A DNA stretch of 64,000 bases from Gordonia sp. PDNC005 (GTDB taxonomy: Bacteria > Actinomycetota > Actinomycetes > Mycobacteriales > Mycobacteriaceae). The stretch is taken from NCBI RefSeq assembly GCF_016919385.1, contig NZ_CP070351.1, positions 1,364,001-1,428,000 on the forward strand, in the 5' to 3' direction. Below the pieces are notes generated by a model. The model was given only the letters and a program-made list of their open reading frames with translations. It did no database searches and was not told where the DNA came from. The first letter of the stretch is position 1; every line of letters starts with the position of its first letter. Made by a program: the position numbers and the translations under genes. Below, piece after piece: positions 1-18,211 of this stretch.

Positions 1-945
1 GCGCACACTCTCGATCGACAAGAACACGTCATGCCGTGCGTCGGTGACGGCGACGGCGAGAACTCGGCCGCCGATGCATCCGGACCACTGCGCGATCTGC
101 TTCACGTCCAGTACACAGTCCGCTGTGTCGACCGACGCGTCGTACTTCCCGCGGAACGACGACTTGTCGGACCTCAGGACCAGCGCTGGGACTCCGACGT
201 CGAGGCCCGCATGCACCTGTCGATGCCCGGCGCGCACTGCAGACAACCAACCGAACGTCACCGGGAATCCGGCGAGTGGCTTGCGGACGAGATCGTACGT
301 CCATTCGCCGTGGACATCGGTGTGCAGGCTGTCGCCGTACGCCGACGACAGTTCGCGTGGGAGCGACTGCATGCCCCGGACCGACCCGACCGCAGAGATC
401 AGTCTGGACGCAGGCGCCGACCGCAAGACGGCCTCGCCTTGCAGATCGAGCCAGGGGCTGTTGAGGAGCAGGCCCACCACGTGCCCGTGCCGTTCCGGAT
501 TTGCGGTCCTGAGTCTGTCCAGCCACAGCGGCGTCACCAGGCCACCAGTCGAGTGACCCGAGACGATCACCTGCGGTGTCCCACCCGCCGCACTCACCTC
601 GTCGGTGATGATGTCCAGTGCGGCGTTCAACTCTTCGTCGTAGAAGGCGAGATCGCTCGTGTAGTGCGGTTGATGGTGAGCCTTCAGCGACCGACCGCAT
701 TTGCGGAGGTCTAGTGCGTAGAAGGCGTATCCCCTCTGGTGAAAGAAGTCGGCGAGCTCCGTCTGGAAGAAGTAGTCGGTGAAGCCGTGCACATACAGCA
801 CCGCACCGCGCGGCGTGATGCCGTCGGTCGGGCGGCGAACGAGGCTCGCGAAGATCGGATCCTCGCCGTCGGGATCCGTTGCGAGCGGGATGGTTCGGAC
901 TTCATAGCCGTCGAGAAACTCGTCAGGGCGCCAGTCTGTGGTCAC
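1..945 (-). CDS. alpha/beta-hydrolase (serine lysophospholipase-like), 3' end outside window
   Basis: The reading frame is open from a GTG at 943-945 to the window edge (315 codons), so the C-terminus is missing. The alpha/beta-hydrolase pattern is clear: an oxyanion HG pair (about residues 53-54, YVHGFTDYF) and the nucleophile elbow GHSTGG (130-135, Ser132). It looks like the monoacylglycerol lipase/lysophospholipase type found beside mqo in mycobacteria. The start is preferred because a TAGAGT -10 (complement of 953-958) lies 7 bases upstream, which suggests a leaderless transcript. The catalytic Asp is probably within the window but I did not assign it. The substrate is unknown. Confidence 0.8.
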   Translation of the reverse strand, partial: MTTDWRPDEFLDGYEVRTIPLATDPDGEDPIFASLVRRPTDGITPRGAVLYVHGFTDYFFQTELADFFHQRGYAFYALDLRKCGRSLKAHHQPHYTSDLAFYDEELNAALDIITDEVSAAGGTPQVIVSGHSTGGLVTPLWLDRLRTANPERHGHVVGLLLNSPWLDLQGEAVLRSAPASRLISAVGSVRGMQSLPRELSSAYGDSLHTDVHGEWTYDLVRKPLAGFPVTFGWLSAVRAGHRQVHAGLDVGVPALVLRSDKSSFRGKYDASVDTADCVLDVKQIAQWSGCIGGRVLAVAVTDARHDVFLSIESVR

Positions 946-952
946 GCCGACC

Positions 953-958
953 ACTCTA
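953..958 (-). promoter_or_regulatory. -10 element of the hydrolase gene
   Basis: TAGAGT on the minus strand lies 7 bases before the GTG start. This is the usual SigA-type TANNNT position for a leaderless message. No convincing -35 is visible. Confidence 0.45.
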
Positions 959-974
959 GTGCCGCTTCATCCGC

Positions 975-990
975 GTGTCGGACGCGACAC
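975..990. promoter_or_regulatory. inverted repeat in the hydrolase/mqo divergent region
   Basis: GTGTCG-GACG-CGACAC is a perfect 6+6 inverted repeat in the 161-base gap between the two divergent genes. It could be an operator. No cognate regulator is evident, so the function is unknown. Confidence 0.3.
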
Positions 991-1106
991 ATTTGGAAGC
1001 ACCGGTGCTACCTGTCAACGTTCGATGGTGAACAATGAATCTCCTAGAGCGGCCCCTGGAGTGGGGTCGGCAAGGATTCACCCCGACCTCGGAGGAGAGC
1101 AGCATC

Positions 1107-2591
1107 GTGTCGCAGAAGGTCATCAAGACGGACGTGGCGTTGATCGGCGCAGGCATCATGAGTGCGACACTCGGCGCGCTCATTCGTCAGCTGGAGCCGA
1201 GCTGGTCGATCAGTCTGTTCGAACGTCTCGACGCGGCAGCGGCCGAGAGCTCGGATCCGTGGAACAACGCAGGCACCGGACACTCTGCGCTGTGCGAGCT
1301 GAACTACACGCCTGCGGGAGCCGACGGCGAGATCGACATCACCAAGGCGCTGACGATCAATGAGCAGTTCCAGGTGTCGCGTCAGTTCTGGGCTCACGGC
1401 GTCGACAACGGCGTGCTCGGAGCCCCGGACGAGTTCATCAACCCGATCCCGCACGTCGCGTACTGCCACGGCGCCGACGGTGTCGAGTTCCTCCGCAAGC
1501 GCCACGCGGCGCTGTCGAGCCAGACCCTGTTCGAGGGCATGGAGTTCATCGACGACGCCGACACCTTCGCCGAGCGTCTCCCGCTGATGGGTGCGGGTCG
1601 TGACTACTCCGACCCCGTCGGTCTGAACTGGTACACCGAGGGCACAGACGTCGACTTCGGTGCGCTCACGCAGCAGCTGCTGAACTACGTCGGCCGCGAC
1701 GCCGACCTCTACTTCGGCCACGAGGTCCGCAACCTGAGCAAGCAGTCGGACGGCAGCTGGGTGATCAAGCTGCGCAACACCCGCAGCGGCGAGAAGCTCC
1801 GCGTCGAGGCGCGTTTTGTGTTCGTCGGAGCAGGCGGCGGCGCCCTCGGCCTGCTGCAGAAGTCGGGGATCAAAGAAGCAAAGGGCTTCGGCGGCTTCCC
1901 GGTCAGCGGTGAGTTCTTCCGCTGCACCAACCCCGACGTCATCGCCGAACACTCGGCCAAGGTCTACGGCCAGGCCGCTGTCGGCGCGCCTCCGATGTCG
2001 GTGCCGCACCTCGACACCCGCGTCATCAATCACGAGAAGGGCCTGCTGTTCGGTCCGTACGCGGGCTGGTCGCCCAAGTTCCTGAAGACCGGTGGTGTCC
2101 TCGACCTGCCGAAGTCGGTGAAGCCGGGCAACCTGGTGCCGATGATGTCGATCGCTCCCAAGGAGTTCGGTCTCCTCAAGTACCTGATCTCCGAGCTCGC
2201 GGCGAGCCGCAACGATCGTGTCACCACCCTCCAGGACTTCGCCCCGCTCGCTGTCGGAGAGGACTGGGAGCTGATCACCGCGGGGCAGCGCGTTCAGGTG
2301 ATCCGCAAGAACGGCATCGGCGGAAGCCTGGAGTTCGGCACCGCCGTCGTCACCTCGGAGGACGGCTCGATGGCCGGTTTGCTGGGTGCGTCGCCGGGTG
2401 CGTCGACCGCTGTCCCCGCCATGATCTCCGTCCTGGAGAAGTGCTTCACCGCCCACTTCGACGGATGGCGCGACAAGCTGACCGATATGATCCCGTCGTT
2501 CGGACAGAAGCTCAACGACAATCCCGCCCTGTACAACCAGGTCTGGGACTGGACCAACCGCAGCCTGCAGCTCACCGGCGACAACGACTGA
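1107..2591 (+). CDS. mqo: malate:quinone oxidoreductase
   Basis: This FAD-dependent, membrane-associated enzyme oxidises L-malate to oxaloacetate and passes electrons to the quinone pool, replacing or backing up NAD-malate dehydrogenase. At 494 aa it has normal family length. The N-terminal Rossmann fingerprint [13 protein letters not shown] (about 12-24) and the conserved [18 protein letters not shown] segment identify it. I chose the GTG at 1107 because GGAGGAG (1091-1097) sits 9 bases upstream. An in-frame ATG at 1035 would add 24 unconserved residues. Three bases separate its stop from the chelatase gene, so the two are probably cotranscribed. Confidence 0.95.
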
Positions 2592-2594
2592 TCG

Positions 2595-4508
2595 ATGTCC
2601 GACCCGGTTCGGTACCCGTTCAGCGCGGTCGTAGGTCAGGAGCGGCTCAAACTCGCGCTGATCCTGTCGGCGGTGTCGCCGGGGATCGGCGGTGTGCTGA
2701 TCAGAGGAGAGAAGGGCACCGCCAAGTCGACCGTTGTGCGTGGCCTCGGCCCTCTGCTCGGGTCTGCATCGCGGGTTGTCGAACTGCCCATCGGCGCCAC
2801 CGAGGACAGGGTTGTCGGGTCGCTCGACCTGACTCGCGTGCTCCGTGACGGACAGGCTCACTTCACTCCCGGCCTGCTCGCCAAGGCGGACGACGGCGTC
2901 CTGTACATCGATGAAGTGAACCTGCTGTCCGACCATCTCGTCGACGTCCTGTTGGACGCTGCGGCGAGCGGTCGGGTGACTGTCGAACGCGACGGAGTGT
3001 CCCACACCCAGTCGGCTCGGTTTGTTCTCGTCGGCACGATGAACCCGGAGGAAGGGGAGTTGCGGCCGCAGCTCCTCGACCGCTTCGGGCTCGTTGTCGA
3101 CGTGGCGGGTCCGCGTGACGTGGACGAGCGAGTGTCCATCGTGACCGCCCGCATGGCGTTCGACGCCGATCCCGCCGGCTTCTCCGACCGGCACGACGCG
3201 GCCGAAACCGAGCTCGCGTCACGGATCTCGCATGCGCGCTCGGCATTGCCCGACGTGATGCTGCCCGCCTCGGAACTGCGTCGGATCGCGGGCATCTGTG
3301 CGCACCTCGACGTGGACGGCCTCCGCGGGGACATCGTGATGGCCCGCACCGCGGCCGCCCACGCCGCGTGGCGCGGTGCATCGGAGGTGACCGAGGACGA
3401 TGTTCGCGTGGCCGCCGAACTCGCGCTCCCGCATCGCCGCCGACGGAATCCGTTCGACGAGTCGTCGATGTCGGAAGAACAGCTCGATGACGCACTCCGT
3501 GCAGGCGACGACGCCGCGTCCAGCGCTCCTGCCGACTCCTCGGACCTGGATCCGTCCAGCGACTCCGATGACACGGCACCCGGCCCGGCGGGCGACGATT
3601 CCGCCGACTCGCGCGACGACAGCCCCTCGGACTCATCGAGCGAAACCGAGACGGACGACCCCGACGACGACCCGCCGCCGAGTGGCGGCGGTGCTGCCGG
3701 ACCGCAGTTCGGCACGAGACCGACGGGTGGCTCTCCACGGGTGCGGACTTTCCGCGCCGACGGCGTCGGTGACGGCGACCCCGGTCGGCGGTCGCGTGCC
3801 CGCAGCACCCGCGGGTCTACGGTCCGTGACGTCGACTTCGGCACCGGGACCGGTGTCCACTTGTTCGGCACGGTCCTCGCGGCCGCCCGACGGGCCGCCG
3901 GTGACGGGATGCCGAGTCTGGAACCCGGGGATCTGCGGGGGACTGAGCGGATCGGCACCGAGTCGAATCTCGTGGTGTTCCTCGTCGACTTGTCCGGGTC
4001 GATGACCGCCCGGTCACGCCTGACCGCGGTCCGTGACGCGTGCGTCGAGATGCTGCGTGACTCGTACACCCGACGTGATCGGGTCGCGGTGGTCGTCGCC
4101 GCAGGCGCGGACGCCTATGTCGCCGTCCCGCCGACTCGCTCGGTCGACATCGCCGTCGGTCGTCTGGCTCAGGTCCGCACCGGGGGTCGGACGCCGCTCG
4201 CCGAGGGACTGCAGCGCAGTGTGGAGGTGATCGACCGGTCCGCCCGCGTGGATCCTCACCGACGGCCGCTGCTCGTGCTCCTCACCGACGGCCGAGCGAC
4301 CGGCGGACGTGATGCCGCGCGCCGCGCCGAGTCAGCCGCCGACGAGGTCGCACGCCGCGGCGTCAGCACGGTTGTCGTCGACTGCGAGCAGGGCTTCGTC
4401 CGTCTCGGTTCGGCGGCGGCCCTCGCCAAGCGGCTCCGAGCCGAGTACGTGCCTCTCGACGATCTCGCCGACACCGGTCTCGCCGCGGGCATTCGCGGCG
4501 TAGCGTAG
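2595..4508 (+). CDS. AAA-VWA metal chelatase subunit (fused ChlI/ChlD type, Rv2850c-like)
   Basis: The 637-aa protein joins a ChlI/BchI-like AAA+ ATPase to a ChlD/CobT-like von Willebrand A domain. Walker A is GEKGTAKST (38-46) and Walker B is [10 protein letters not shown] (102-111). An acidic, Ser/Asp-rich linker covers about 290-365. The VWA MIDAS motif DLSGSM lies near 465-470. Such fusions power metal insertion by a separate large CobN/ChlH-like subunit. With cobO and cobB next door, cobalt insertion into hydrogenobyrinic acid diamide is the likeliest role, but no large subunit lies in this window. It begins 3 bases after mqo. Confidence 0.85.
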
Positions 4509-4520
4509 GTCCCTCCACCC

Positions 4521-4620
4521 CTGCCCAGCGCCGCCCCTTCCTGCCCAGCGACGCCCTTCCCGCTCGTTGAGCGAGGTTCGTCCCCGGTCAGTGACGCCCT
4601 TCCTGCTCGTTGAGCCAGGG
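4521..4620. repeat. degenerate short direct repeats between the chelatase gene and cobO
   Basis: A 25-base unit (consensus AGYGACGCCCTTCCYGCTC followed by GTTGAG) occurs at 4547-4571 and 4590-4614 with 23 of 25 bases identical. A further partial copy (CTGCCCAGCG..GCC) lies at 4521-4540. Each full unit ends in CTCGTTGAGC, a motif related to the CTCCTTGAGCGAG element at 48631-48768. It lies in the 151-base gap before cobO and is not coding. Confidence 0.6.
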
Positions 4621-4659
4621 GATGGTGAGCACGCGGAGGGCGGTGGATAGGGTGATCAC

Positions 4660-5277
4660 ATGCCTCAGGGAGTCCCCGAATCTGTTCCGAACGACGGTTT
4701 GACCACACGTCAGCGACGCAACCAGCCGGTGCTGGCAGTGCACACCGGACCAGGCAAGGGCAAGTCGACCGCAGCTTTCGGAATGGCGATGCGCGCATGG
4801 AACGCCGGGATGGACGTCGCGGTCTTCCAGTTCGTCAAGAGCGCCAAGTGGAAGGTCGGCGAGGAGTCGACGATGACCGCACTCGGACGACTGCACGAGC
4901 ACACCGGAGAAGGCGGACCGGTCCAGTGGCACAAGATGGGCCAGGGCTGGTCGTGGATCCGCCGGAGCGACGACGCCGAACAGGACCACGCTGACGCGGC
5001 GCGTGCCGGCTGGACCGAGATCGCGCGGCGCATCGCATCGGAAGAACACGACTTCTACGTACTCGACGAGTTCACCTATCCGCTGCACTGGGGATGGATC
5101 GACGTCGACGAAGTGGTGACCGCGCTCCGTGAGCGGCCCGGCCGCCAGCACGTCGTGATCACCGGTCGATACGCGCCCGACGCACTCGTCGAAGCCGCCG
5201 ACCTGGTCACCGAGATGACCAAGATCAAGCACCCGATGGATGCCGGCCGCAAAGGCCAGAAGGGCATCGAGTGGTGA
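4660..5277 (+). CDS. cobO: cob(I)yrinic acid a,c-diamide adenosyltransferase
   Basis: This is a CobA/CobO-family ATP:corrinoid adenosyltransferase of 205 aa, the normal length. It transfers the 5'-deoxyadenosyl group of ATP to reduced cobalt. The P-loop GPGKGKST (30-37) and VLDEFTYPLHWGWID, the Walker B-like stretch, are diagnostic. It overlaps cobB by seven bases (5271-5277), so the two are translationally coupled. Confidence 0.95.
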   Translation: MPQGVPESVPNDGLTTRQRRNQPVLAVHTGPGKGKSTAAFGMAMRAWNAGMDVAVFQFVKSAKWKVGEESTMTALGRLHEHTGEGGPVQWHKMGQGWSWIRRSDDAEQDHADAARAGWTEIARRIASEEHDFYVLDEFTYPLHWGWIDVDEVVTALRERPGRQHVVITGRYAPDALVEAADLVTEMTKIKHPMDAGRKGQKGIEW

Positions 5278-6671
5278 TCAACACCCGCAGGGCGGGTGGG
5301 CGACGGGTTCCCACTGTCGTCATCGCGGCGCCGTCCTCGGGAAGCGGAAAGACGACGATCACCACCGGGCTCATCGGCGCACTCGTCGCCGCTGGTCACC
5401 GGGTTGCGCCGTTCAAGGTGGGGCCGGACTACATCGATCCCGGATATCACGCCGTGGCCGCGGGCCGACCCGGACGCAACCTCGACCCCAACCTGGTGGG
5501 GGAGCACCGCATCGGGCCGCTCTTCGCCGCAGGCTCGGTGGACGCGGACATCGCGGTTGTCGAAGGTGTGATGGGCCTGTTCGACGGCCGGATCACCGAC
5601 GACGACGGCACCCTCGGAGTCGGGTCCACCGCGCACGTCGCATCGCTGATCGGCGCCCCGGTGGTCCTGGTGGTCGACGCCGGCGGACACAGTCAGTCGC
5701 TTGCAGCACTGCTGCACGGTTTCGTCTCGTACGACCCGACGGTTCACGTGGCGGGCGTGATCCTCAACCGGGTCGGCTCCGATCGCCACGAAGCCGTACT
5801 GCGGCAGGCCGCGGACCGGGCCGGACTGCCGGTGTTCGGTGTGGTCCGCCGGGACTCCGCGCTGTCGGTGCCGTCACGGCACCTGGGACTGGTCCCCGCG
5901 GCGGAACGCAGTGCCGAGGCCGTGGCGTCCGTTGATGCGATCACCCGGCTGGTCGGCGCCGGTATCGATGTCGAGTCGATCGTCCGTCTCGCTGCGACGG
6001 CCAGGGGCACGGAGGTCGCACCGTGGTCGGCCGCCGACGAGATGGCCGAACACCGTGTCGACACGAGACCCGTCGTCGCCGTCGCGCAGGGAGCGGCGTT
6101 CACGTTCGGCTACGCCGAGCACCCCGAACTCCTGGCCGCTGCCGGAGCCGACGTGGTGTCGTTCGATCCACTGCATGACAGACTGCCCGAGCACACGTCG
6201 GCGGTGGTGATCGGTGGTGGGTTCCCGGAGGAGCACGCAGTCGATCTCGCCGCCAACGAGGGCCTGCGCTCCGATCTGGCTCGCCATGCCGCGGCCGGAC
6301 GTCCGGTCCATGCGGAATGCGCCGGGCTGCTGTATCTGTCGTCAATGCTCGACGGCCATGCGATGGTCGGAGCGATCGAGGCCGACGGGGCTTTCGGCCC
6401 GCGCCTGACCCTCGGCTATCGGGACGCGGTCGCGGTCGCCGACAGCGTGCTCTATCGCACCGGTGAGCGGGTCACCGGACACGAGTTCCACCGAAGCACC
6501 GTCGCCTTCCGGGCTGACAGAACACCCGCGTGGGCATGGCGTGCGGGGGACGCGAACTCCGCTGACGGCGTCGTCTCACATGGCATTCACGCCTCTTACC
6601 TGCATGTTCACCCGGCGGGAGTGCCCGAGTCCGTCGGCCGGTTCGTCGCTGCGGCAGGACGGGCCCGATGA
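5271..6671 (+). CDS. cobB: cobyrinate/hydrogenobyrinate a,c-diamide synthase
   Basis: The 466-aa CobB/CbiA-type enzyme amidates the a and c side chains of the corrin ring using ATP and glutamine. The N-terminal dethiobiotin-synthetase-like domain has P-loop SSGSGKTT (22-29) followed by FKVGPDYIDPGYH. The C-terminal class I glutamine amidotransferase domain has its nucleophile in HAECAGLLYLS (Cys near 350). It starts with tandem GTG codons inside the end of cobO. Its own stop overlaps the next ATG (ATGA at 6668-6671), coupling a cobalamin gene to a sensor kinase, which is unusual. Confidence 0.95.
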   Translation: MVINTRRAGGRRVPTVVIAAPSSGSGKTTITTGLIGALVAAGHRVAPFKVGPDYIDPGYHAVAAGRPGRNLDPNLVGEHRIGPLFAAGSVDADIAVVEGVMGLFDGRITDDDGTLGVGSTAHVASLIGAPVVLVVDAGGHSQSLAALLHGFVSYDPTVHVAGVILNRVGSDRHEAVLRQAADRAGLPVFGVVRRDSALSVPSRHLGLVPAAERSAEAVASVDAITRLVGAGIDVESIVRLAATARGTEVAPWSAADEMAEHRVDTRPVVAVAQGAAFTFGYAEHPELLAAAGADVVSFDPLHDRLPEHTSAVVIGGGFPEEHAVDLAANEGLRSDLARHAAAGRPVHAECAGLLYLSSMLDGHAMVGAIEADGAFGPRLTLGYRDAVAVADSVLYRTGERVTGHEFHRSTVAFRADRTPAWAWRAGDANSADGVVSHGIHASYLHVHPAGVPESVGRFVAAAGRAR

Positions 6672-8263
6672 CGTTCCACGAGGTCCGCACGGCGGTCGAT
6701 GCGCTCGCAGCCAAAGACGGGAACGACCCCACGGCTCTGCGTGACGTGCTCGAAGCCGTCTTGCTGGTCGGCCAGGGTCTTGAACTCGACCTCGCGCTGC
6801 AGCGCATCGTCGACGTCGCGGCCGGTGTGCTCGACGCCCGCTACGGCGCCCTCGGCGTTCGCGGACCGGAACTGAGCTTGCAGGCGTTCGTCTACACGGG
6901 AATAGCCCCCGATGTGCGTGCGACGATGGGCCGACTGCCCGTCGGTCACGGTGTGCTCGGTGAACTGCTCCACCATCCAGAGGTGCTGCGCATCGAACGG
7001 TTGTCGGACCACCCGGCGTCGATCGGGTTCCCACCTCAACACCCGCCGATGAACACCTTTCTCGGGGCACCGATCATCGTCCGCGGGGAGTTGTTCGGCA
7101 GCATCTACCTCACGGAGAAGCAGGGTGCGCCTGCGTTCACCGAGCTCGACGAGAAGATCGTCGCCGTGCTGGCTGTAGCCGCGGGCATCGCGGTCGACAA
7201 CGCGCGCTCCTTCGAGAGTTCACAGACGCGGCTGCGGTGGATGCAGCTGCTCGCCGACCGCGGCAGCGAACCGGTTCGTGGGATCTCGCTCGAAGACACG
7301 CTGACCGGCGTGTGCGCGGACGTCGCGTCGTTGAGCCACGCCACCGACGTGTATGTCGTCACCGGGGCGGAGCTTGTCGCCCACACGGGAGACCCGGTGA
7401 ACGTCGACGACGTCGCCGGCACGTTCGGCGCGCGTGACGCAGGCCTCGCAGTGTCCGTTGTCGACGACGAGCGCGCGTGGCTGCGCGACGGTGCGCAGTG
7501 GGTCACCGTGCAACCGATTCAAGGGCCGCCCGGGCAGTTCCGCGCGATCGTCCTGACACACGTCGATCGTCGAGTGTGGACAGCCGAAGAGGAGGCGGGG
7601 CTCGCCGGGGTCGCACGTGTTGCGTCGTTGTCGATCGCGTACGCACAGCAGCAGGACCTGGAACGGGAGATGGAGGTCCTCTCCGACCGGCATCGGATCG
7701 CTCGTGACCTGCATGATCTGGTGATCCAGAGGCTCTTCGCGATCGGCATGTCGATGCAGACGATGAAAGCGCGGCCGTCCGAACTCGACGGACGCATGGA
7801 TCAGGCGATCACCGACCTCGACTCGACGATCGCCCAGATCAGAACATCGATCTTCGACCTGCACAGCAGCTCCGGTCAGAGCACCAAGACGCTCCGGCGT
7901 CGAGTGCTCGACGTGGTCGCCGAGCTCGCCGCACACGCGCCGATCACCCCGAGCGTCGCATTCTCGGGTCCTGTCGACACGATCGTCCCGGACACCTTGT
8001 CGCCGCACATCGAAGCGGTCCTGCGGGAAGGACTGTCGAACGCTCTCCGTCATTCCGACGCCGAGCGGATCGGTGTCCGGATCGTGGCGTCCGACGACCT
8101 CGTCGTGGAGGTGTCCGACGACGGTATCGGCATACCGCAGGACGCCCGTCGCTCGGGTCTGCGGAACTTGGAACGCCGTGCGACAGAATGCGGCGGCGTC
8201 TTCAGCGAACGGTCCGCCGCAGGGGAGGGCACGACGCTGACCTGGACGGTTCCGCTCGCCTGA
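6668..8263 (+). CDS. DosS/DevS-like GAF sensor histidine kinase (probable haem-binding gas sensor)
   Basis: The 531-aa soluble kinase has a GAF domain at about 40-180, a degenerate second GAF at about 195-325, a HisKA_3 phosphoacceptor RIARDLHDLVIQ (His349) and a HATPase domain (DGIGIP, RSGLRNLERRA). The first GAF closely follows M. tuberculosis DosS as I recall it. FPPQHPPM puts His125 at the place of the proximal haem ligand His149, and FGSIYLTEK puts Tyr147 at distal Tyr171, both with the same offset of 24. Haem binding is therefore likely but inferred. The start overlaps the cobB stop by 4 bases. The probable partner is the DevR-like regulator at 9059-9727. Confidence 0.88.
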   Translation: MTFHEVRTAVDALAAKDGNDPTALRDVLEAVLLVGQGLELDLALQRIVDVAAGVLDARYGALGVRGPELSLQAFVYTGIAPDVRATMGRLPVGHGVLGELLHHPEVLRIERLSDHPASIGFPPQHPPMNTFLGAPIIVRGELFGSIYLTEKQGAPAFTELDEKIVAVLAVAAGIAVDNARSFESSQTRLRWMQLLADRGSEPVRGISLEDTLTGVCADVASLSHATDVYVVTGAELVAHTGDPVNVDDVAGTFGARDAGLAVSVVDDERAWLRDGAQWVTVQPIQGPPGQFRAIVLTHVDRRVWTAEEEAGLAGVARVASLSIAYAQQQDLEREMEVLSDRHRIARDLHDLVIQRLFAIGMSMQTMKARPSELDGRMDQAITDLDSTIAQIRTSIFDLHSSSGQSTKTLRRRVLDVVAELAAHAPITPSVAFSGPVDTIVPDTLSPHIEAVLREGLSNALRHSDAERIGVRIVASDDLVVEVSDDGIGIPQDARRSGLRNLERRATECGGVFSERSAAGEGTTLTWTVPLA

Positions 8264-8325
8264 GTGGTACCTCTGCGCGGGGGCGTGCCGCGATCGGGCG
8301 ACGCATCGCCTCTGCGGTACCACTC
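8262..8325. terminator. probable bidirectional terminator
   Basis: GAGTGGTACC (8262-8271) and GGTACCACTC (8316-8325) form a perfect 10-bp inverted repeat enclosing GC-rich sequence. It lies between the convergent ends of the sensor kinase and the membrane-protein gene. There is no T tract, which is common for terminators in this group. Confidence 0.55.
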
Positions 8326-8376
8326 GCGCGACAAGCTCGATGCTGTCGTCTGCCTTCTACGTTCGAGGAACTGAGT

Positions 8377-9069
8377 TCAGTCGACCAGTTCGCGTGTGTG
8401 GACGCTGGAGTCGGGGAGGATGACCACCTCGCGGTCGTCCGTCAGGACGTGCAGGAACCCAGGCTCGGCTTCGAGGACATATCCCTCGACGACGCCCTCG
8501 TCCGTCTCGATCCGTTCCGCGCCCATCCACGGAACGTCGTTCACCGCGGCGAGGATGAGCACGCCTGCGGCGGCGAGCATCGACACACGTCGACTGATCC
8601 GCAGCAGCACGTCGTGCACGGCACCGGTGCGCCACCACAGCCTCATGACCGAGACGACGATTCCGACGGCCGCGGCGCCGAGAGGCGTCCACAGGTTGCC
8701 GAAGGTGACGGTCATCGACAGCGCCATCGTCAGCAGTGTCACCGCGCCAAGCACGATCGACACCGTGATCGTTCCGCGGTGCCGATCCATCGGCCACAGC
8801 ACACGCATCAGCACGATCGGCAGCAGCAACGCGATGAAGACGCCGGTCAGCACGGGCTGGCCGACGACCGTTCCGAACGCGATCGGAAAGGCGTCCGAGA
8901 AGTCGAACGTGTCGGCGATCGCCGCGACCGTGTGCCAGTCCCAGTGCGCCACGGCGAGCATCCGCAGCACCAGGAACAGCACGGCCACTGCTGCGGTGGT
9001 CCCGAGTTGGACGCTCAGCTCACGGCCGCCGGACGGGTCACGATCCGGCGAGTCGGCGTCAGCGGTCAC
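8377..9069 (-). CDS. five-helix membrane protein with C-terminal soluble domain, coupled to the DevR-like regulator
   Basis: I do not recognise a family for this 230-aa protein. There are five hydrophobic segments, at about 20-42, 72-92, 102-122, 126-147 and 163-181. A soluble C-terminal tail of about 45 residues follows, rich in Val, Glu and Asp ([22 protein letters not shown]), which looks like a small beta-barrel. Its start lies inside the last codons of the upstream response-regulator gene (11-base overlap), so it belongs to that operon. It may be a membrane accessory or target of the two-component system, but no function can be assigned. Confidence 0.75.
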
Positions 9070-9727
9070 GACCGCGCAGTTCCGTCGCCAGGACGGCGAC
9101 CTGGGTGCGACGCTGCATGTCGAGCTTCGACAGGATCCGCGAGACGTAGTTCTTGATCGTCTTCTCGGCGAGGAACATGCGGTCGGCGATCTGCCGGTTG
9201 GTGAGTCCTTCGCCGATCAGCGTGAACACCTCACGCTCCTGCGACGTCAGCTGGGCGAGGGGATCGGTGGGCTCGCCCTTGCGCAGCTTCGCGAGAAGCG
9301 CACCGGTGCTCTTCGGATCGAGCAGCGAACCGCCGTTGCCGACGGTCCGCACCGCTTCGATCAAGTTGTGGCCCAGGATCTGCTTGAGCACAAAACCCGA
9401 CGCGCCTGCGAGGACTGCCGCGAGCAGGGCGTCGTCGTCGGCGTAACTGGTCAGCATCAGACAGCGGATGTTCGGATTCTCTGCTCGGACGTCCCGACAC
9501 AGTTCCACACCGTTGCCGTCGGGGAGTCGGACGTCGAGCACCGCCACGTCGGGTTCTGCTGACGCGATGCCGACCCGGGCCTCACCGACGGTTGCGGCTT
9601 CACCGACCACCACGAGATCGTCGGCGGTACCGAGCAGGTCTCGGAGTCCGCGTCGGACGAGTTCGTGGTCGTCGACGAGGAACACGCGTACTCGGCGTCG
9701 GTTGGGATCGTGAGGTCCAGCGGTCAT
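9059..9727 (-). CDS. DevR/DosR-like NarL-family response regulator
   Basis: The 222-aa regulator has a receiver domain (LVDDHE at 18-22, phospho-acceptor Asp65 in [15 protein letters not shown] switch Thr, K in FVLKQI) and a C-terminal LuxR-type HTH (about 158-218: [29 protein letters not shown]). The HTH is close to M. tuberculosis DevR, including the AEKT.KNYVSR recognition segment. It is divergent from the desaturase gene, with two DosR-like boxes between them. It probably receives phosphate from the kinase at 6668-8263 and may regulate its own gene. Confidence 0.88.
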
Positions 9728-9754
9728 GTCAGCAACGTTACCGCAGGTGAGGAG

Positions 9755-9791
9755 TGGACTCGGGGCCCAATCGACTCGGGACTTTCGGCTC
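9755..9791. promoter_or_regulatory. two DosR/DevR-like boxes in the divergent promoter
   Basis: The reference core as I recall it is GGGACTWWAGTCCC. Box A is TGGACTCGGGGCCC (9755-9768, 9 of 14 matches). Box B is GGGACTTTCGGCTC (9778-9791, 11 of 14 matches). The boxes start exactly 23 bases apart, about two helical turns. They stand 28 bases from the regulator ATG and 37 from the desaturase ATG used here, so near-palindromic sites could serve both directions. Binding is inferred. Confidence 0.6.
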
Positions 9792-9828
9792 AGGACATGA
9801 CCGGGTCCGCGTCGTCATGGTGGATGCC

Positions 9829-10800
9829 ATGACTGCATTGATCGGTTCGTCGATGACCGGCTCGGACCTGCTTCGTGAACTCCTTCCCGATTGTGAGCGG
9901 GAAGTGGAACGACATATGAAGCTCACGCGCGACTGGCACCCGCACGACTACGTCCCGTGGGACGACGGCCGCAACTTCGCAGCGCTCGGCGGCGTCGACT
10001 GGGACCCGGAGCAGTCGCAGCTGTCGGAGACGGCGAAAGCCGCGATGATCACGAATCTGCTGACGGAGGACAACCTGCCGTCGTACCACCGGGTGATCGC
10101 CGACAATTTCACTCTCGACGACGCCTGGGGCTTCTGGGTGGGGCGGTGGACGGCCGAGGAGATGCGGCATTCGATCGTCATGCGGGACTACCTCGTCGTC
10201 ACCCGTGGGGTCGACCCGGTGGAGCTGGAGAACCTTCGGATGGAACACATGACCGGCGGGTACAACCCGCTGCCGGACGACGACGGCCAGCGTGACCACA
10301 GTTTCGACATGCTGTATGCGGTGGCGTACGTGTCGTTCCAGGAGCTGGCCACCCGGGTCAGTCACAAGAACACCGGCAAGGCGTGCGGCGACCCGATCGC
10401 CGACCGCATGCTGCAGCGCGTGGCAGCTGACGAGAACCTGCACATGATCTTCTACCGGAACATCGTCTCCGCGGCTCTCGACGTGGTGCCGGACGAGGCG
10501 ATGGAGGCGATTTTCACCATCGTGTCGAACTTCGCCATGCCGGGAGCGACGATGCCCAACTTCCGCCGCAACGCCGTGTTGATCGCCAAGGGCGGGATCT
10601 ACGACCTTCCGCAGCACATGAACGAGGTGGTGATGCCGGTCCTGCGCAAGTGGCGGATCTTCGATCGCGACGACTTCGGTCCGACGGGCCAGATGTACCG
10701 GGAGAAGCTCGCCGCGTTCCTCTCCCAGATGGACGTCAAGGTCACGAAGTTCGAGGAGTCACGCGCACGGGCCCTGGCCCGGGCCGAAGCACGGATGTAA
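9829..10800 (+). CDS. acyl-[ACP] desaturase (DesA1-like, diiron)
   Basis: This soluble FA_desaturase_2 enzyme introduces a double bond into acyl-ACP using O2 and reduced ferredoxin. In mycobacteria the DesA enzymes feed mycolate or unsaturated fatty acid synthesis. Diiron ligand motifs are visible as AEEMRH and ADENLH, together with DYVPWDDGRNF, LPSYHR and the RVSHKNTGKACGDP segment typical of DesA1. The start is uncertain: in-frame ATGs lie at 9817, 9829 and 9853. 9829 (323 aa) is preferred because the upstream DosR-like box B would place a transcription start close to it. The gene is divergent from the regulator gene. Confidence 0.85.
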   Translation: MTALIGSSMTGSDLLRELLPDCEREVERHMKLTRDWHPHDYVPWDDGRNFAALGGVDWDPEQSQLSETAKAAMITNLLTEDNLPSYHRVIADNFTLDDAWGFWVGRWTAEEMRHSIVMRDYLVVTRGVDPVELENLRMEHMTGGYNPLPDDDGQRDHSFDMLYAVAYVSFQELATRVSHKNTGKACGDPIADRMLQRVAADENLHMIFYRNIVSAALDVVPDEAMEAIFTIVSNFAMPGATMPNFRRNAVLIAKGGIYDLPQHMNEVVMPVLRKWRIFDRDDFGPTGQMYREKLAAFLSQMDVKVTKFEESRARALARAEARM

Positions 10801-10826
10801 CACGTCGCCGACTACTGTCAACGGTC

Positions 10827-12047
10827 ATGGGGCACCCTCATTACCTGGCCGGACTGGACCTGCGGGACCGACGTGTTGTTGTCGTCGGAGGCGGAAGCGT
10901 CGCGCAGCGTCGACTGCCGAACCTGCTGGCAGCAGGCGCGGACGTGCATGTGATCGCAGTCGATCCGACACCGACGATCGAGTCTGAACCCACGGTGACG
11001 GTCCACCGTCGGCCATACGCCGCCGGTGATCTCGACGGTGCCTGGTACGCCATCGCATGCACCGACGATCCGGCGGTGAACGCTGCGATCGTGGCCGAAG
11101 CGACCGAGGACCGGATCTTCTGCGTCCGGGCCGACGACGGTTCGTCCGGCACTGCGGTGACACCGGCGTCCGGCCATCACGGCGATCTTCAGTTCGGAGT
11201 GCTCGCCGGTGGCGATCACCGGCGTTCCGCGGCCGCCCGCGCCGCGATCACCGCGGCATTCGCGGACGGCACGTCATTGACCGTCGAGGACGACAACCGT
11301 CATGCGCCGGGAGTCGCCCTCGTCGGCGGTGGGCCCGGCGCCGCCGACATGATCACCGTGCGTGGCCGCAGACTGCTCGCCGAAGCCGACGTGGTCGTCG
11401 CAGATCGCCTGGCACCCGTTGCACTGCTCGACGAGCTCGGCCCGCAGGTCGAGATCATCGACGCGGCGAAGGTGCCGTACGGCCGTGCGATGCGTCAGGA
11501 GCAGATCAACGAGATCCTCGTCGAGCGGGCGAAGGCCGGGAAGTTCGTCGTCCGTCTGAAAGGCGGCGATCCCTACGTGTACGGGCGCGGTTTCGAAGAA
11601 CTGCAGGCGTGTGTCGAGGCCGGGGTCCCGGTGACGGTGGTCCCGGGTGTCACGAGCCCGATCTCGGCTCCCGGTCTCGCGGGAATCCCGGTGACTCACC
11701 GTGGAGTGACCCACGAGTTCGTCGTCGTGTCCGGTCATGTGGCACCGGATCATCCGGACTCGCTGACCGACTGGAACGCGCTCGCCCAGTTGCGAGGCAC
11801 GATCGTGTTGATGATGGCGGTCAAACGGATCGACGTGTTCGCGCAGGCCCTGCTGGCCGGAGGGCGCCCGGCGGACACGCCCGTCGCCTTCATCGAGAAC
11901 GCCTCTCGTCCCGATCAGCGGCTCATTCGCACAGACCTCTCGCACGCCGCGCAAGCGGCGAGCGACGAGGGACTGATCGCGCCTGCGATCGCGGTGATCG
12001 GGCCGGTCGCCGGATTCACCGACATCGATCGTGCGGTGCTCCTGTGA
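10827..12047 (+). CDS. cysG: sirohaem synthase: precorrin-2 dehydrogenase / uroporphyrinogen-III C-methyltransferase
   Basis: The 406-aa protein has an N-terminal NAD-binding precorrin-2 dehydrogenase part (VVVVGGGSVAQRRLPNLL, about 17-34) and a C-terminal SAM-dependent uroporphyrinogen III methylase (VALVGGGPGAADMITVRG and VVRLKGGDPYVYGRG). The methylase makes precorrin-2, the branch point for sirohaem and cobalamin, which fits the cobO/cobB context. The ATG at 10827 is chosen because a TACTGT -10 (10812-10817) precedes it by 9 bases, suggesting leaderless expression. An upstream in-frame extension would run into the desaturase gene. The length equals the mycobacterial enzyme. Confidence 0.93.
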   Translation: MGHPHYLAGLDLRDRRVVVVGGGSVAQRRLPNLLAAGADVHVIAVDPTPTIESEPTVTVHRRPYAAGDLDGAWYAIACTDDPAVNAAIVAEATEDRIFCVRADDGSSGTAVTPASGHHGDLQFGVLAGGDHRRSAAARAAITAAFADGTSLTVEDDNRHAPGVALVGGGPGAADMITVRGRRLLAEADVVVADRLAPVALLDELGPQVEIIDAAKVPYGRAMRQEQINEILVERAKAGKFVVRLKGGDPYVYGRGFEELQACVEAGVPVTVVPGVTSPISAPGLAGIPVTHRGVTHEFVVVSGHVAPDHPDSLTDWNALAQLRGTIVLMMAVKRIDVFAQALLAGGRPADTPVAFIENASRPDQRLIRTDLSHAAQAASDEGLIAPAIAVIGPVAGFTDIDRAVLL

Positions 12048-12439
12048 ACGCCCGCATGGCCGCGGGAGTCTCCGGCGCGCTTCTCCTCGTGGCCGCGGTC
12101 GCAGCGTGGTTCGTCAGTCCGGTGATCACCGCGGTTCTCGTCGGGCTCGCGGTGGTGGTGATGTCGGGGTGGCAGATGTACCGCCGCCGCGCCGGCATCG
12201 AACCGCTTCCCGAATCCGGGTTCACCACGATCGTCGTCCCGCTTGTGTTCGGCGCGCTCGCGGTCACAGCTCTCAACGGCTGGATCTACCGGATCTCCGC
12301 AGACGCGGGTTCCGGATCCGGCGACCTGCGCATGCTGATCGGCCTGATCACCGGTGTCATCGGGATGGCTGCAGCGTACGGCTACGGCCGTATCCGGGCC
12401 CAGAAGGCTCAGATCGCCGCCATCGACGACGAGGACTGA
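12044..12439 (+). CDS. small four-helix membrane protein
   Basis: This 131-aa protein starts at a GTG that overlaps the cysG stop (GTGA, 12044-12047), so it is translationally coupled. Four hydrophobic segments cover about 6-22, 25-43, 62-84 and 98-120. A basic YRRR loop follows the second helix and the tail is charged. I do not recognise a family. The coupling hints at a membrane role connected with cysG expression, no more. Confidence 0.7.
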   Translation: MNARMAAGVSGALLLVAAVAAWFVSPVITAVLVGLAVVVMSGWQMYRRRAGIEPLPESGFTTIVVPLVFGALAVTALNGWIYRISADAGSGSGDLRMLIGLITGVIGMAAAYGYGRIRAQKAQIAAIDDED

Positions 12440-12450
12440 CGAACGCCGGG

Positions 12451-13200
12451 TCAGCCCTCCGTGACGACGGTGATCTCGACGGGCGAGGTCACCTCCACTC
12501 GCTGACCTGCGTCGGACAGCACGGCGGCCAGTCCGTTGACGTCACGGACGTTCCGGCGTGTGCGGACGAGTTCGTGCGCGACGAGACCCTTGTAGTGCTT
12601 GTTGAAGTGGCTGACCACCTTGCGCGTCCCGTTCGGGTACTCGGTGACGACGGTTGCGGTCACCGAGCCCGAGACGGGCCCGAGCTTCTGGTAAACGCCC
12701 GACCGCAGGTCGATCACGAAGTCGTCGATCGCGTCGAGCGCGGGAGAGAGGACCGGCTTCCACACGGAGCCTAGAGTCCCGAAACCCGGAAGCTTCGATC
12801 CGCCCGAGAGGCGGTACGCCGGAATCTCGTCGGTCGCTGAGACGACGCCGAACAGCGCCGATCCCACCATGAGGCGATCCGCCGCCTTCGTCTTCGACGC
12901 ACGAGTCATGCCCGGGTAGTCGAGGGCGTCGTAGAGAACACCCGTGTACCGAGTGATCGCCGGACGGGTCGGGCTGGTGAACAGCTCTGCGTTGCGAGCG
13001 ACCTCGGCGATCGCCGCATCACTCGCGCCAAGGCCGAGTGCGTCGCGGGAGGCGTTGAGGTCGGACGACAACCCGACGACGGCGTCGGCCACACGTCGGC
13101 GTACGTCGGTGAGCGCGGGGAGCGACAGCGATTCGAGGTCGAGCGGGGCCGACGTCCCGCCGTCGGACTTGGTCTCCGAAGGAGGCAGGATCACGAGCAC
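12451..13200 (-). CDS. yaaA: peroxide stress protein YaaA (DUF328/UPF0246)
   Basis: The 249-aa protein begins [11 protein letters not shown], the family hallmark, and carries [11 protein letters not shown] and the late HFNKHYKG motif. YaaA proteins lower free iron and protect DNA against hydrogen peroxide in E. coli, probably by direct DNA binding. A TAGGGT -10 lies 6 bases before the GTG start, which suggests a leaderless message. It is divergent from proS. Confidence 0.9.
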
Positions 13201-13234
13201 GCGACCACCCTAACGAACGCCGCGTCACCCGCAC

Positions 13235-13240
13235 TAAGCT
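13235..13240 (+). promoter_or_regulatory. -10 element of proS
   Basis: TAAGCT ends 8 bases before the proS GTG, so the message should start at or next to the start codon. Confidence 0.45.
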
Positions 13241-13248
13241 GGACTACC

Positions 13249-14991
13249 GTGATCACACGCATGTCCGCACTGTTCCTCCGCACGCTCCGCGACGACCCCG
13301 CCGACGCCGAGGTTCCGAGCCACAAGCTCCTCGTCCGCGCCGGCTACATCCGACGCACCGCACCAGGCGTCTACTCGTGGCTGCCGCTCGGCCTGCGAGT
13401 GTTCCGGAACGTCGAGCAAGTGGTGCGCGACGAGATGGACGCGATGGGCGCTCAGGAGATCCTGCTGCCGGCGCTGCTCCCTCGTGATCCGTACGAGTCG
13501 ACCGGCCGATGGACCGAGTACGGCCCCAACCTCTTCCGCCTCAAAGACCGCAAGGGCGCAGAGATGTTGCTCGGTCCCACCCATGAAGAGATCTTCACTC
13601 AGCTGGTGAAGGGCGAATACAGCTCGTACAAAGACCTCCCGGTGATCCTGTACCAGGTTCAGACCAAATACCGCGACGAAGAGCGGCCCCGCGCGGGTAT
13701 CCTCCGCGGGCGTGAGTTCGTCATGAAGGACTCGTACTCGTTCGACCTCGACGACGCGGGACTGCAGGTCTCGTACGACAAGCACCGTGCCGCATACCAG
13801 AGCATCTTCGACCGTCTCGGCGTCAAGTATGTGATCGTCAAGGCGACGGCCGGAGCGATGGGCGGCAGCCAGTCCGAAGAGTTCCTCGCCGAGTGCGAGG
13901 TGGGTGAGGACACCTTCGTCCGCAGCACCGAGTCCGACTACGCAGCCAACGTCGAGGCAGTCGTCACCACCGTGCCGTCCGCGCGGCCGATCGACGGCCT
14001 GCCTGCGGCGGTGGCACACGAGACCGGCGACACCCCGACGATCGAGACGCTCGTCGACTGGGCGAACGCGACCCTCGACGGGGAGTACACCGCTGCCGAC
14101 ACTCTCAAGAACGTGATGGTCAAGATCCGCAAGCCGGGCGGCGAGTGGGAGATCACCGCGATCGGCGTTCCCGGCGACCGCGAAGTCGACTTCAAGCGGC
14201 TCGAGGCGTCCGTTGAGCCGGCCGAGGTCGAGCTTCTCGAGGAGTCCGACTTCGTCGCGAATCCCGCACTGGTCAAGGGCTACATCGGCCCCAAGGGTGT
14301 GCAGGGCGCGGGATTCACATATCTCGTCGATCCTCGAGTGGTCGAGGGCACGTCGTGGATCACGGGCGCCGACGTGAAGGGGCAGCACTTCGTTGACCTC
14401 GTCGTGGGCCGCGACTTCACTCCGGACGGAGTCATCGAGGCCGCATCGGTGCGCGACGGCGACCCGTCGCCCGACGGCAAGGGAGTTCTGACCTCGGCCA
14501 AGGGCATCGAGATCGGCCACATCTTCCAGCTCGGCCGCAAGTACGCCGACGCCTTCGAGCTCGACGTCCTCGGCGAGAACGGAAAGCCGGTCCGCGTCAC
14601 GATGGGCTCGTACGGTCTTGGAGTGTCGCGGATGGTCGCCGTCCTCGCCGAGCAGATGCACGACGACAAGGGACTGCGCTGGCCGCGCGAGGTCGCGCCC
14701 TTCGACGTCCACCTGGTGATCGCCAACAAGGACGAGGCCGCAGTCGCAGGCGCCGAGGACCTTGCCGCCAAGCTCGACGCTGCAGGCGTCTCGGTGCTCC
14801 TCGACGATCGCAAGGCGTCACCCGGGGTGAAGTTCAAGGACTCCGAGCTCCTCGGCATGCCGATCGTCGTTGTCGTCGGACGTGGTTGGGCCAACGGCAC
14901 CGTCGAGATCCGCGACCGCTTCACCGGTGAAGCCGTGGAAGCTCCGGTCGACGGCGCGACTGACGCCGTCCTTGCCGCAGTACGCGGCTAG
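13249..14991 (+). CDS. proS: prolyl-tRNA synthetase, bacterial type
   Basis: The 580-aa class II synthetase charges tRNA-Pro. Motif 1 is in the first 70 residues. Motif 2 is represented by the region with LGPTHEE and [26 protein letters not shown]. The central insertion (editing) domain spans about 225-385. Motif 3 ([17 protein letters not shown]) and the C-terminal anticodon-binding domain ([12 protein letters not shown] onward) follow. The start is a GTG 8 bases after a -10. Confidence 0.97.
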
Positions 14992-15016
14992 TCACGCTTA
15001 AGGTTCGCCGATTCCA

Positions 15017-15056
15017 CCGATTCTTTCGGCGCACAGCCGGAGATCGCTCGAATCGG
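15017..15056. terminator. possible bidirectional terminator between proS and the ferritin-like gene
   Basis: CCGATTC (15017-15023) pairs with GAATCGG (15050-15056), enclosing a CGGC/GCCG hairpin. It sits in the short gap between convergent gene ends. Confidence 0.4.
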
Positions 15057-15062
15057 GGAACG

Positions 15063-15488
15063 TTACGCGCCGGGGAAGGGAACCGTCGTCGGAGAGACGC
15101 CCTGCGATGCACGCCAGTGCGCGATGCGCAGGGCGGAGTCTGCGAGACCGTCGACGCCGAGCCTGCGGACAGTCGTGTCGGCTGCCTGTTCCACGAGAGC
15201 ACGGTAGGCCTGGGCACACGCGTTCTCCGCCTGCAGGATGGCCTTTCCAGCGGTGGCGCCGTCGGTGACGTCGAACGGCAGGGTGTAGCCGGCTGCGGGC
15301 ACCCGTTCGTTCGACCCTGCCGCGACCAGGGCGTTGTTCAGCGCGTCACGGCGCACCCGATGCTCGGCGATGTACGTGCCGACGAGAGTGCGTTCGTCAC
15401 CCGTGGCGAATGCCGTCGCGAGACCGTAAACGAAGATCGCGGTGTTCTCTGCGTCGGCCGCGGTGGACAGTGCGTCGACTTGGCTCAT
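15063..15488 (-). CDS. DUF4439 ferritin-like domain protein (Rv2844-like)
   Basis: The 141-aa all-alpha protein starts MSQVDALSTAADAENTAIFVYG, with Glu residues in ferritin-like helix positions. The family is named for a ferritin-like fold; metal binding is not shown here. An upstream ATG would add 10 residues, but the ATG at 15488 overlaps the stop of the lipoprotein gene (ATGA). This coupling suggests the two products act together, as in mycobacteria where the same pair sits beside proS. Confidence 0.8.
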   Translation of the reverse strand: MSQVDALSTAADAENTAIFVYGLATAFATGDERTLVGTYIAEHRVRRDALNNALVAAGSNERVPAAGYTLPFDVTDGATAGKAILQAENACAQAYRALVEQAADTTVRRLGVDGLADSALRIAHWRASQGVSPTTVPFPGA

Positions 15489-15970
15489 GCGAGCTGGACC
15501 TCCGTGAGGGTGCGGCACGCGGCCGACGTGGATGCGAGTAGACCTGCGACGAAGCCCTCGGCGGCGACGGCCGACGTCGCCGCAGATTTCGTGGACGCGG
15601 TGAGCGCAGCGCGCAGTGCGTCGATCGTGGTGATCGCGGGCGCCGCATCATCGATGCGAGCCGCGGACGAGGAGTGCAGTCTGTTCACTTCGTCACGCAG
15701 TGCCTGCGCGTGTTCACCGCGCTGTGCCGCGACGACTCCGAGTGCGGCGGTGTACTCGGTGACCCGCGGGCCGAGCGACTGAGCGGCCTTCTGCTCGCGA
15801 ACTGCCGCTTGCGCGTGCTGGACCAGCATCTCGGCGGTGTCGCGCTGCTCGTCGAGTGTCGGCCCGCATGCTGTGACCGAGACTCCGGCGGCGACGACGA
15901 GGGGAACCGCAGCCGCTCCGCGTAGGACTGCGCGGCGAGATGGTCCGGGGTACGGGTAAAGGGCAGTCAC
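15485..15970 (-). CDS. Tat-type lipoprotein with DUF4439-like helical domain (Rv2843-like)
   Basis: From the GTG at 15970 the product is 161 aa: a short N-terminus with PSRRAVLRG, a hydrophobic stretch and a lipobox VTAC. Twin Arg plus lipobox implies Tat export and lipid anchoring on the outer face of the membrane. The mature part is Ala-rich and helical, with repeated polar heptads. A longer frame upstream starting at 16150 would overlap rimP and lacks support. The partner at 15063-15488 follows with a 4-base overlap. Function unknown. Confidence 0.75.
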   Translation of the reverse strand: MTALYPYPGPSRRAVLRGAAAVPLVVAAGVSVTACGPTLDEQRDTAEMLVQHAQAAVREQKAAQSLGPRVTEYTAALGVVAAQRGEHAQALRDEVNRLHSSSAARIDDAAPAITTIDALRAALTASTKSAATSAVAAEGFVAGLLASTSAACRTLTEVQLA

Positions 15971-16002
15971 GTTGTCGAATTCTGCCAGTCCCTCGAATCG
16001 AC

Positions 16003-16008
16003 TACACT
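16003..16008 (+). promoter_or_regulatory. -10 element of the rimP-nusA-infB operon
   Basis: TACACT stands 89 bases before rimP, giving a leader of about 80 bases. That leader contains GCCCC...GGGGC and CCAC...GTGG complementary segments, so it may fold. Confidence 0.45.
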
Positions 16009-16097
16009 CAGCAGGCCCCGAACGGAGCGTTCTCCCACACGTACAGTGGACCGTCAGAACGGGGCGCAGATCAGGAAAGTCACGAGGTGAGGGCACG

Positions 16098-16649: not shown

Positions 16650-16698
16650 ACAAAGAACTGAACAGACAACTCAACCCGACAAGCGAATAGGAGTCGCC

Positions 16699-17787: not shown

Positions 17788-17790
17788 CCT

Positions 17791-18108: not shown

Positions 18109-18166
18109 CAGAGAACCATGAGCACACCGTGAAGTCTCCACGATGAGCACGTTGACCGAATAAATC

Positions 18167-18196
18167 GAGGTCGCAGCGGGAAGCCCGCTCGACCTC
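18167..18196 (+). promoter_or_regulatory. hairpin in front of infB
   Basis: GAGGTCG-C-AGCGGG-AAG-CCCGCT-CGACCTC folds into a near-perfect stem (13 bp with one bulged C). It ends 5 bases before the infB Shine-Dalgarno (GAGGAG, 18202-18207). It could attenuate readthrough or affect infB translation; untested. Confidence 0.5.
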
Positions 18197-18211
18197 CAAG
18201 TGAGGAGAGCA

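Follow-up and report, generated by a model that had tools for sequence, protein, structure and literature searches.

We analysed a 64,000-bp stretch of DNA (hereinafter, the window) from Gordonia sp. PDNC005, a part of a 4.26 Mb single-contig genome near G. malaquae. Between cobB and the cysG-type methyltransferase gene the window contains genes for a DosS/DosT-type sensor histidine kinase, a DosR/DevR-type response regulator and, divergent from the latter, an acyl-ACP (acyl carrier protein) desaturase, with two DosR-like boxes in the gap between the regulator and the desaturase. These genes very probably form a self-contained gas-sensing module with its own output gene, such that the desaturase is raised when O2 falls. 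This description is built on gene order, conserved residues, boxes and the desaturase subfamily tree. The arrangement had been pointed out in a first-pass annotation of the window, which interpreted it as a gas sensor controlling an O2-consuming desaturase; the observation was confirmed and the interpretation was partly supported.

The best PDB match of the kinase GAF-A domain is DosT (2vzw; E = 6.1e-46, 160.6 bits), followed by DevS, and the output part of the kinase consists of HisKA_3 and HATPase_c domains with PDB matches to the ATPase domains of DosT and DevS. His125 and Tyr147, which we take to be the proximal heme ligand and the distal tyrosine, and His349, the phospho-acceptor of HisKA_3, are each invariant in 36 of 36 kinase loci. 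Arg65, to which we also assign a presumed role, is retained in 30 of the 36; it agrees with the aligned DosT chain, and the DevS chain shown has His in this position. By its GAF-A residues and output domains the kinase belongs to the DosS/DosT heme kinases, and it would be expected to bind heme and to switch upon O2, nitric oxide (NO) or carbon monoxide (CO) binding. The best PDB match of the regulator is DevR (3c3w, 268 bits). Residues D19, D20, D65, T93, K115, K189 and N193 are present in 35 of 35 loci, K192 and T208 in 34; they presumably include the phospho-acceptor and the LuxR-type DNA contacts of DevR. These matches and residues bear out the DosS/DosR-like pair of the first-pass annotation.

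The pair shares with the mycobacterial DosS/DosT-DosR (DevS/DevR) system the heme-type GAF kinase with HisKA_3 and HATPase_c, the NarL-type regulator and the key residues. Unlike that system, PDNC005 has a single DosS-type kinase (at E≤1e-40), its gene lies behind cobB, and the regulator gene is divergent to the desaturase gene. The next-closest regulator in the genome is 41% identical to that of the block. The kinase is 96% identical to its counterpart in G. malaquae and 84% to that in G. spumicola; a search of named genomes yielded 33 loci, of which two belong to these two Gordonia species, one to Streptomyces (39%, a full-length relative), and the rest are distant kinases. DesK/DesR of Bacillus subtilis, both among the PDB matches, likewise combine a HisKA_3 kinase and a NarL-type regulator controlling a desaturase. 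However, DesK senses the membrane state via transmembrane segments, whereas here the sensor is a soluble heme-type GAF domain.

The gap between the starts of the regulator and desaturase genes is 101 bp long and holds both boxes. In the alignment of this gap from 22 loci, two conserved blocks are located at a distance of 23 bp (22 bp in a single species), with the mean information per column reaching 1.06 bits (box 1) and 1.37 bits (box 2), compared to 0.35 bits in the spacer and 0.45 bits downstream. The consensus, GGGACYTTSGSCYC, contains the half-site GGGAC as mycobacterial boxes do, and it is less palindromic than the mycobacterial DosR box. In a leave-out test, where sequences at least 80% identical were removed from the model and 100 shuffles were made for each locus (dinucleotide-preserving where that succeeded), box 2 scored above the shuffles in all 22 loci (p<0.05), and box 1, in 16. 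Three held-out Gordonia loci also yielded the site (G007, E = 2.6e-7; G021, E = 1.5e-5; G022, box 2 score 25.1); hence it was found in 25 of 25 Gordonia genomes, 22 of them contributing to the model. The same 23-bp distance separates the two top-scoring sites of the fdxA probe from M. tuberculosis (PMC12919924), and the hspX probe differs in this respect. By sequence conservation, a DosR-like box is thus present at the promoters of both the regulator and its target as a putative binding site. The claim of two DosR-like boxes is weak if judged from a single genome and strong on comparison, the weaker element being box 1 of PDNC005 itself.

The desaturase belongs to the Pfam family FA_desaturase_2, and its nearest PDB entry is DesA2 (1za0). 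It retains the EXXH motifs E111/H114 and E202/H205 characteristic of soluble acyl-ACP desaturases (PF03405), which are present in 31 of 31 loci; the residues that we take to be the diiron ligands are found in 30 or 31 of 31 loci. It is the same kind of enzyme as the mycolate desaturases DesA1 and DesA2. Matches to the DesA family at E≤1e-90 are present in 50 of 61 genomes of the bacterial family studied, and PDNC005 has four: the block gene, a copy adjoining dus, a copy at 376022 and a DesA2-like one. The block desaturase is 65 and 68% identical to the two other full DesA1-like copies. Linkage to dus was assumed by us to mark DesA1 (Rv0824c), as in the gene order of M. tuberculosis. The dus-linked copy at genome position 344616 (Dus identified by Pfam) has no boxes, in contrast to the block gene. 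The third copy (genome 376022–376957, locus L070; 65% identity to the block desaturase) has neither a box nor a dus neighbor in the fetched stretch.

In the tree of 93 desaturases, 25 cob-linked ones (that is, adjoining cobB and/or cysG), six regulator-linked ones and two having only the box form one clade of 33 members, and all 39 dus-linked copies are outside it. The six regulator-linked desaturases come from five other genera and are encoded at other genomic places. Upstream regions were scored with the Gordonia box model at the cut-off of 13. Scores of the cob-linked genes range from 16.5 to 26.7; 22 of these 25 had trained the model, and the three that had not (L143, L054, L217) score 17.6, 21.9 and 22.3. 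For dus-linked genes the score is at most 10.5. Outside the cob-linked group, L221, L194, L197 and L226 score 20.8, 17.2, 13.9 and 13.6, respectively; L193, L195 and L206 score at most 4.5 directly upstream, but next to the regulator gene, some 1 kb ahead of the desaturase, they have a box scoring 15.7 to 18.4. In total, a box is present at or near the desaturase in seven of the eight clade members outside the cob-linked group. Judged by the dus-linked locus and the clade together, the block desaturase is not the DesA1 orthologue. The divergent orientation given in the first-pass annotation was confirmed; the protein itself is a paralogue, in a separate clade, of the dus-linked copy taken as DesA1.

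Control of such desaturases by DosRS is in part already known. In M. abscessus, Mab_3354, called desA1, is among the genes most strongly induced in hypoxia in the DosRS-dependent manner, and the authors state that there is no evidence for such control in M. tuberculosis (PMC10034137). In M. avium, the fatty acid desaturase MAV_1793, which has a predicted DosR site, showed the log2 fold change of +9.25 under microaerobic conditions and −8.61 in the dosRS mutant; it is also induced by NO, MAB_3354 is given as its M. abscessus homologue, and the available text lists no homologue in M. tuberculosis (PMC11876180). MAB_3354 is printed as DesA1 in PMC10034137 and PMC8066798; however, PMC10699116 gives MAB_0754c as the orthologue of desA1 Rv0824c in M. 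abscessus, and therefore MAB_3354 is probably a desA1 paralogue, which would group with the DosR-linked clade. No dosS-dosR-desaturase block is described for either species in the available text of PMC10034137 and PMC11876180. We found no report of DosR in Gordonia or of a linked DosSR-desaturase module among the open-licence PMC papers listed, some of the listings covering a part of the papers found. Thus, desaturases induced in hypoxia via DosRS were already known from M. abscessus and M. avium, and because of them we consider the proposed circuit partly known and well supported. What is new is the linkage of the module genes in several genera, the location of the module in the cob block, and the likely role of cytochrome bd oxidase as a co-target.

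DosS-like kinases (E≤1e-40) were found in 35 of 41 genomes searched, including all 25 Gordonia. The order cobB, kinase, regulator (−), desaturase (+), cysG is observed in 20 of 24 Gordonia regions fetched, and the complete order is also present in a genome of another genus (G046, locus L217). Among the four exceptions, G024 is a fragmented assembly with no cobB within 5 kb upstream of the kinase. In G022 the kinase is split from the regulator, desaturase and cysG by a dnaK-grpE-dnaJ-clpB block (L265, 14890–19001; genes named by eye). In G007 about 15 kb are inserted inside the membrane-protein gene, and the regulator, desaturase and cysG follow; this element (L036 from 7129, L143 to 626) contains an open reading frame (ORF) of 1368 residues that has a transglycosylase-like domain and may encode a phage tape measure protein. 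For comparison, 62 cysG matches were obtained in the 61 genomes, 30 of them with flanks, 25 of these being neither from Gordonia nor from G046. In 19 of the 25, cobB is located 61 to 507 bases upstream of cysG, and neither a kinase nor a regulator nor a desaturase gene separates them; the remaining six have no cobB in the cysG flank. The gene order therefore shows that most other relatives seen lack the module at the cobB-cysG junction, as the first-pass annotation had stated for M. tuberculosis. It was also described as inserted: it does lie between cobB and cysG, as a genus-wide arrangement shared with G046 and not as a local insertion. The simplest reading is a single entry into the cobB-cysG junction in an ancestor shared by Gordonia and G046, with transfer from one to the other as an alternative.

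In all 25 loci having cobB, the kinase start is between −19 and +14 bases from the cobB stop, a range biased to tight values by picking the nearest start; in PDNC005 the cobB stop and the kinase ATG share four bases, as expected for the proposed coupling. The kinase is therefore probably transcribed as part of the cob operon rather than from the promoter of the regulator, and thus the sensor level and the regulator level would be set separately.

Taken in order, the circuit would operate as follows. The kinase would sense O2 and NO, probably also CO, via the GAF-A heme suggested by its residues, and would phosphorylate the regulator, its closest partner in sight. The regulator, with contact residues identical to those of DevR, would bind the conserved tandem boxes and activate its own promoter and that of the desaturase at low O2 or upon NO exposure, in line with the experiments in two mycobacteria. 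The extra desaturase may offset the slower rate of an O2-using enzyme, so that acyl chains stay unsaturated; the most likely substrates would be meromycolate or other acyl-ACP chains.

Several observations weigh against this circuit. It is drawn for Gordonia entirely from sequence comparison, and its oxygen response there is inferred, even if the mycobacterial data (PMC10034137, PMC11876180) back the general proposal; MAB_3354 and MAV_1793 were likened to the clade by their published descriptions. The support of the clade (ultrafast bootstrap 87, SH-aLRT 94) is below the strong-support mark of the tool. Box 1 of the window itself is non-significant (p=0.069), and the Gordonia box model scores only 9.6 on the hspX and 4.3 on the fdxA probe of M. 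tuberculosis (PMC12919924), both below 13, although scores as good arose in 1 and 17 of 500 shuffles, respectively. The best site in the window agrees with the M. tuberculosis consensus, as we presume it to be, in 13 of 20 positions, which was equalled in 13 of 100 shuffles; taken as the sole proof of the boxes, this consensus was rejected as insufficient, the match being no better than chance in the window. In G021, the fourth exception to the gene order, the regulator-desaturase pair is inverted and the desaturase is strongly diverged (58%), and in G089 there is no box at the cut-off of 13.

The location of the boxes admits a further reading: they may serve mainly the regulator gene or, in the extreme case, this gene alone, the desaturase then being a neighbor with its own control retained by linkage. 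The boxes, indeed, lie between both genes, and the sequence does not assign them to either promoter alone; in G061 and G085 (one genus) and in G065 (a second genus) the box adjoins the regulator gene, with about 1 kb between it and the desaturase; and a putative DosR site is mentioned in the dosR promoter of M. avium (PMC11876180). However, in G081 and G057 (one genus) a desaturase of the same clade has the box with no adjacent regulator, the association of the two genes recurs elsewhere in the genomes of five other genera, and the M. avium and M. abscessus desaturases require DosRS for hypoxic induction; hence we regard autoregulation as the only role of the boxes as unlikely. The proximity of the kinase to cobB, with probable co-transcription with cobO-cobB, might instead make the kinase functionally a part of the cobalamin/siroheme genes, monitoring the tetrapyrrole or B12 status and not gas. 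This seems quite improbable given that the heme GAF residues are conserved, that the fetched regions of G059, G061, G063, G065 and G085 contain kinase-regulator-desaturase sets and no cob genes, and that the sole Rfam match at the gathering score in positions 1–20000 of the window is not a cobalamin riboswitch.

The sign of regulation could also be the reverse, with the regulator lowering the desaturase under O2 scarcity and sparing O2 for respiration via cytochrome bd. Such saving would be economical, and M. tuberculosis desA1 and desA2 are repressed late in hypoxia, in a model with MadR (PMC6398593), a different regulator. However, DosR-type regulators act as activators, and strong induction is reported for the counterparts in M. 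avium and M. abscessus; repression of the block desaturase is therefore a very improbable outcome. We retain activation of the desaturase at low O2 as the preferred reading.

Further candidate targets were sought in the PDNC005 genome. There are six exact occurrences of the pattern GGGWCYTTNGNCYC in 4.26 Mb and none of its reversed control. The six places are the block site, the upstream regions of cydA, a flavohemoglobin gene and a flavodoxin gene, and two positions within coding sequence, rejected as targets. In 18 of 25 Gordonia the box upstream of cydA exceeds the 95% control level, making cytochrome bd oxidase a probable co-target, turned on by the same regulator. The tandem-box model, applied to the genome at E≤10, gave at least nine matches (best 150 of 4599 candidates scored), including the block site (E = 4.6e-7) and the cydA upstream region (E = 0.07); those at 3263851, 2346386, 2579058 and 2888897 were examined and not accepted as targets. 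Flavohemoglobin was rejected as a general target, since such a box is missing from 20 of 23 loci (19 of 21 Gordonia) and present in three (two Gordonia); its box is clade-specific at most. The box near the flavodoxin gene (Pfam; near 3120331) scores 13.1. Universal stress protein gave nine matches, with one tandem pair having an upstream box of 13.2. The palindrome GGGACN4GTCCC is found at six places in the genome and nowhere in the window, five of them being coding and one upstream of a gene by ORF calling.

Between the DosR-like box and cydA (genome 324210–324357; L122, 7211–7358) there is also a conserved inverted repeat (searched for as TACTA, 3–7 bases, TAGTA), which 22 of 25 Gordonia genomes have upstream of cydA and which we read as a second operator. 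A repeat of this type adjoins the DosR-like box upstream of the flavohemoglobin gene in PDNC005 (genome 1499478, L269); upstream of this gene the repeat was found in only one of 23 loci. In a genome from another family of the order (G031, locus L060), a DosS-like kinase has tandem boxes of the same kind nearby, at 3504–3542 and 4753–4785, and one of them precedes a nitroreductase gene (Pfam).

The coordinates of the block are listed in the table. The desaturase start most likely is that given there and not 9754, as first drawn, since most aligned relatives begin at 9829; the boxes then would be outside the coding sequence. Given the position of the TAACGT element, the regulator transcript may be leaderless.

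Table. Features of the cobB-cysG region in the window (positions in the 64,000-bp stretch)
Feature	Position	Strand	Remarks
cobB	5271..6671	+	Upstream gene; ATGA overlap of its stop with the kinase start
DosS/DosT-type sensor histidine kinase	6668..8263	+	Heme-type GAF-A (His125, Tyr147), HisKA_3 (His349), HATPase_c
Accessory membrane protein	8377..9069	-	Overlaps the 3' end of the regulator gene; clade-specific; without Pfam or NCBIfam match
DosR/DevR-type response regulator	9059..9727	-	Asp65 phospho-acceptor; DNA contacts Lys189, Lys192, Asn193 (presumed roles)
TAACGT, possible -10 element	9735..9740	-	7 bases from the regulator ATG; TTACCG-like stretch conserved in the alignment
Box 1, DosR-like site	9754..9768	.	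Weak in the PDNC005 genome
Box 2, DosR-like site TCGGGACTTTCGGCTCAGG	9776..9794	.	23 bp from box 1
Acyl-ACP desaturase, DosR-linked DesA1-like subfamily, 323 aa	9829..10800	+	Pfam, alignment of relatives, tree
cysG-type siroheme/uroporphyrinogen methyltransferase	10827..12047	+	Downstream boundary

Gene calls and domains agree with the first-pass set of kinase, regulator, membrane protein and divergent desaturase between the two boundary genes. The coupling of the membrane protein to the regulator holds as far as the overlap of the genes is concerned; however, the protein is found in just five of 25 Gordonia genomes including PDNC005 (tblastn, E≤1e-8). It had no match in Pfam or NCBIfam. At least 19 relatives besides itself are among the matches listed (8000 candidates scored), those with a named organism being five from Gordonia and one, a weak match, from Streptomyces. 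The membrane protein is accessory and no defining part of the module.

Some further observations concern the desaturase genes. The Rfam family ASdes, a small RNA family of the tubercle bacillus, matches the window at 10159–10226 (−) with 49.6 bits, antisense in the desaturase, which may reflect coding conservation only. In G089 (L216) there is a tandem pair of dus-linked DesA1-like copies with 136 bases between them. A nitroreductase named by eye between the regulator and the desaturase in G061, G065 and G085 was dropped, as Pfam shows only the desaturase on the G085 frame; no fusion is claimed for this stretch.

In an obligate aerobe, double-bond synthesis at scarce O2 has rarely been tied to a defined sensor, and here the sensor, regulator, operator and enzyme within about 4 kb make the question directly testable, the more so as the genera concerned include ordinary laboratory strains. 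The finding sets a DosR-linked desaturase apart from the housekeeping mycolate desaturase DesA1. It is possible, if rather doubtful, that mycolic-acid bacteria hold an ancient hypoxia-specialized subfamily of DosR-bound acyl-ACP desaturases, often sensor-linked, whose kinetics suit low O2 through an O2 affinity above that of DesA1; in Gordonia this subfamily would be coupled with cytochrome bd oxidase, and M. tuberculosis would lack it. If this is true, yeast OLE1 and similar hypoxia-induced desaturases would have a bacterial counterpart here. The results suggest a DosR function common to several genera, which M. tuberculosis may lack.

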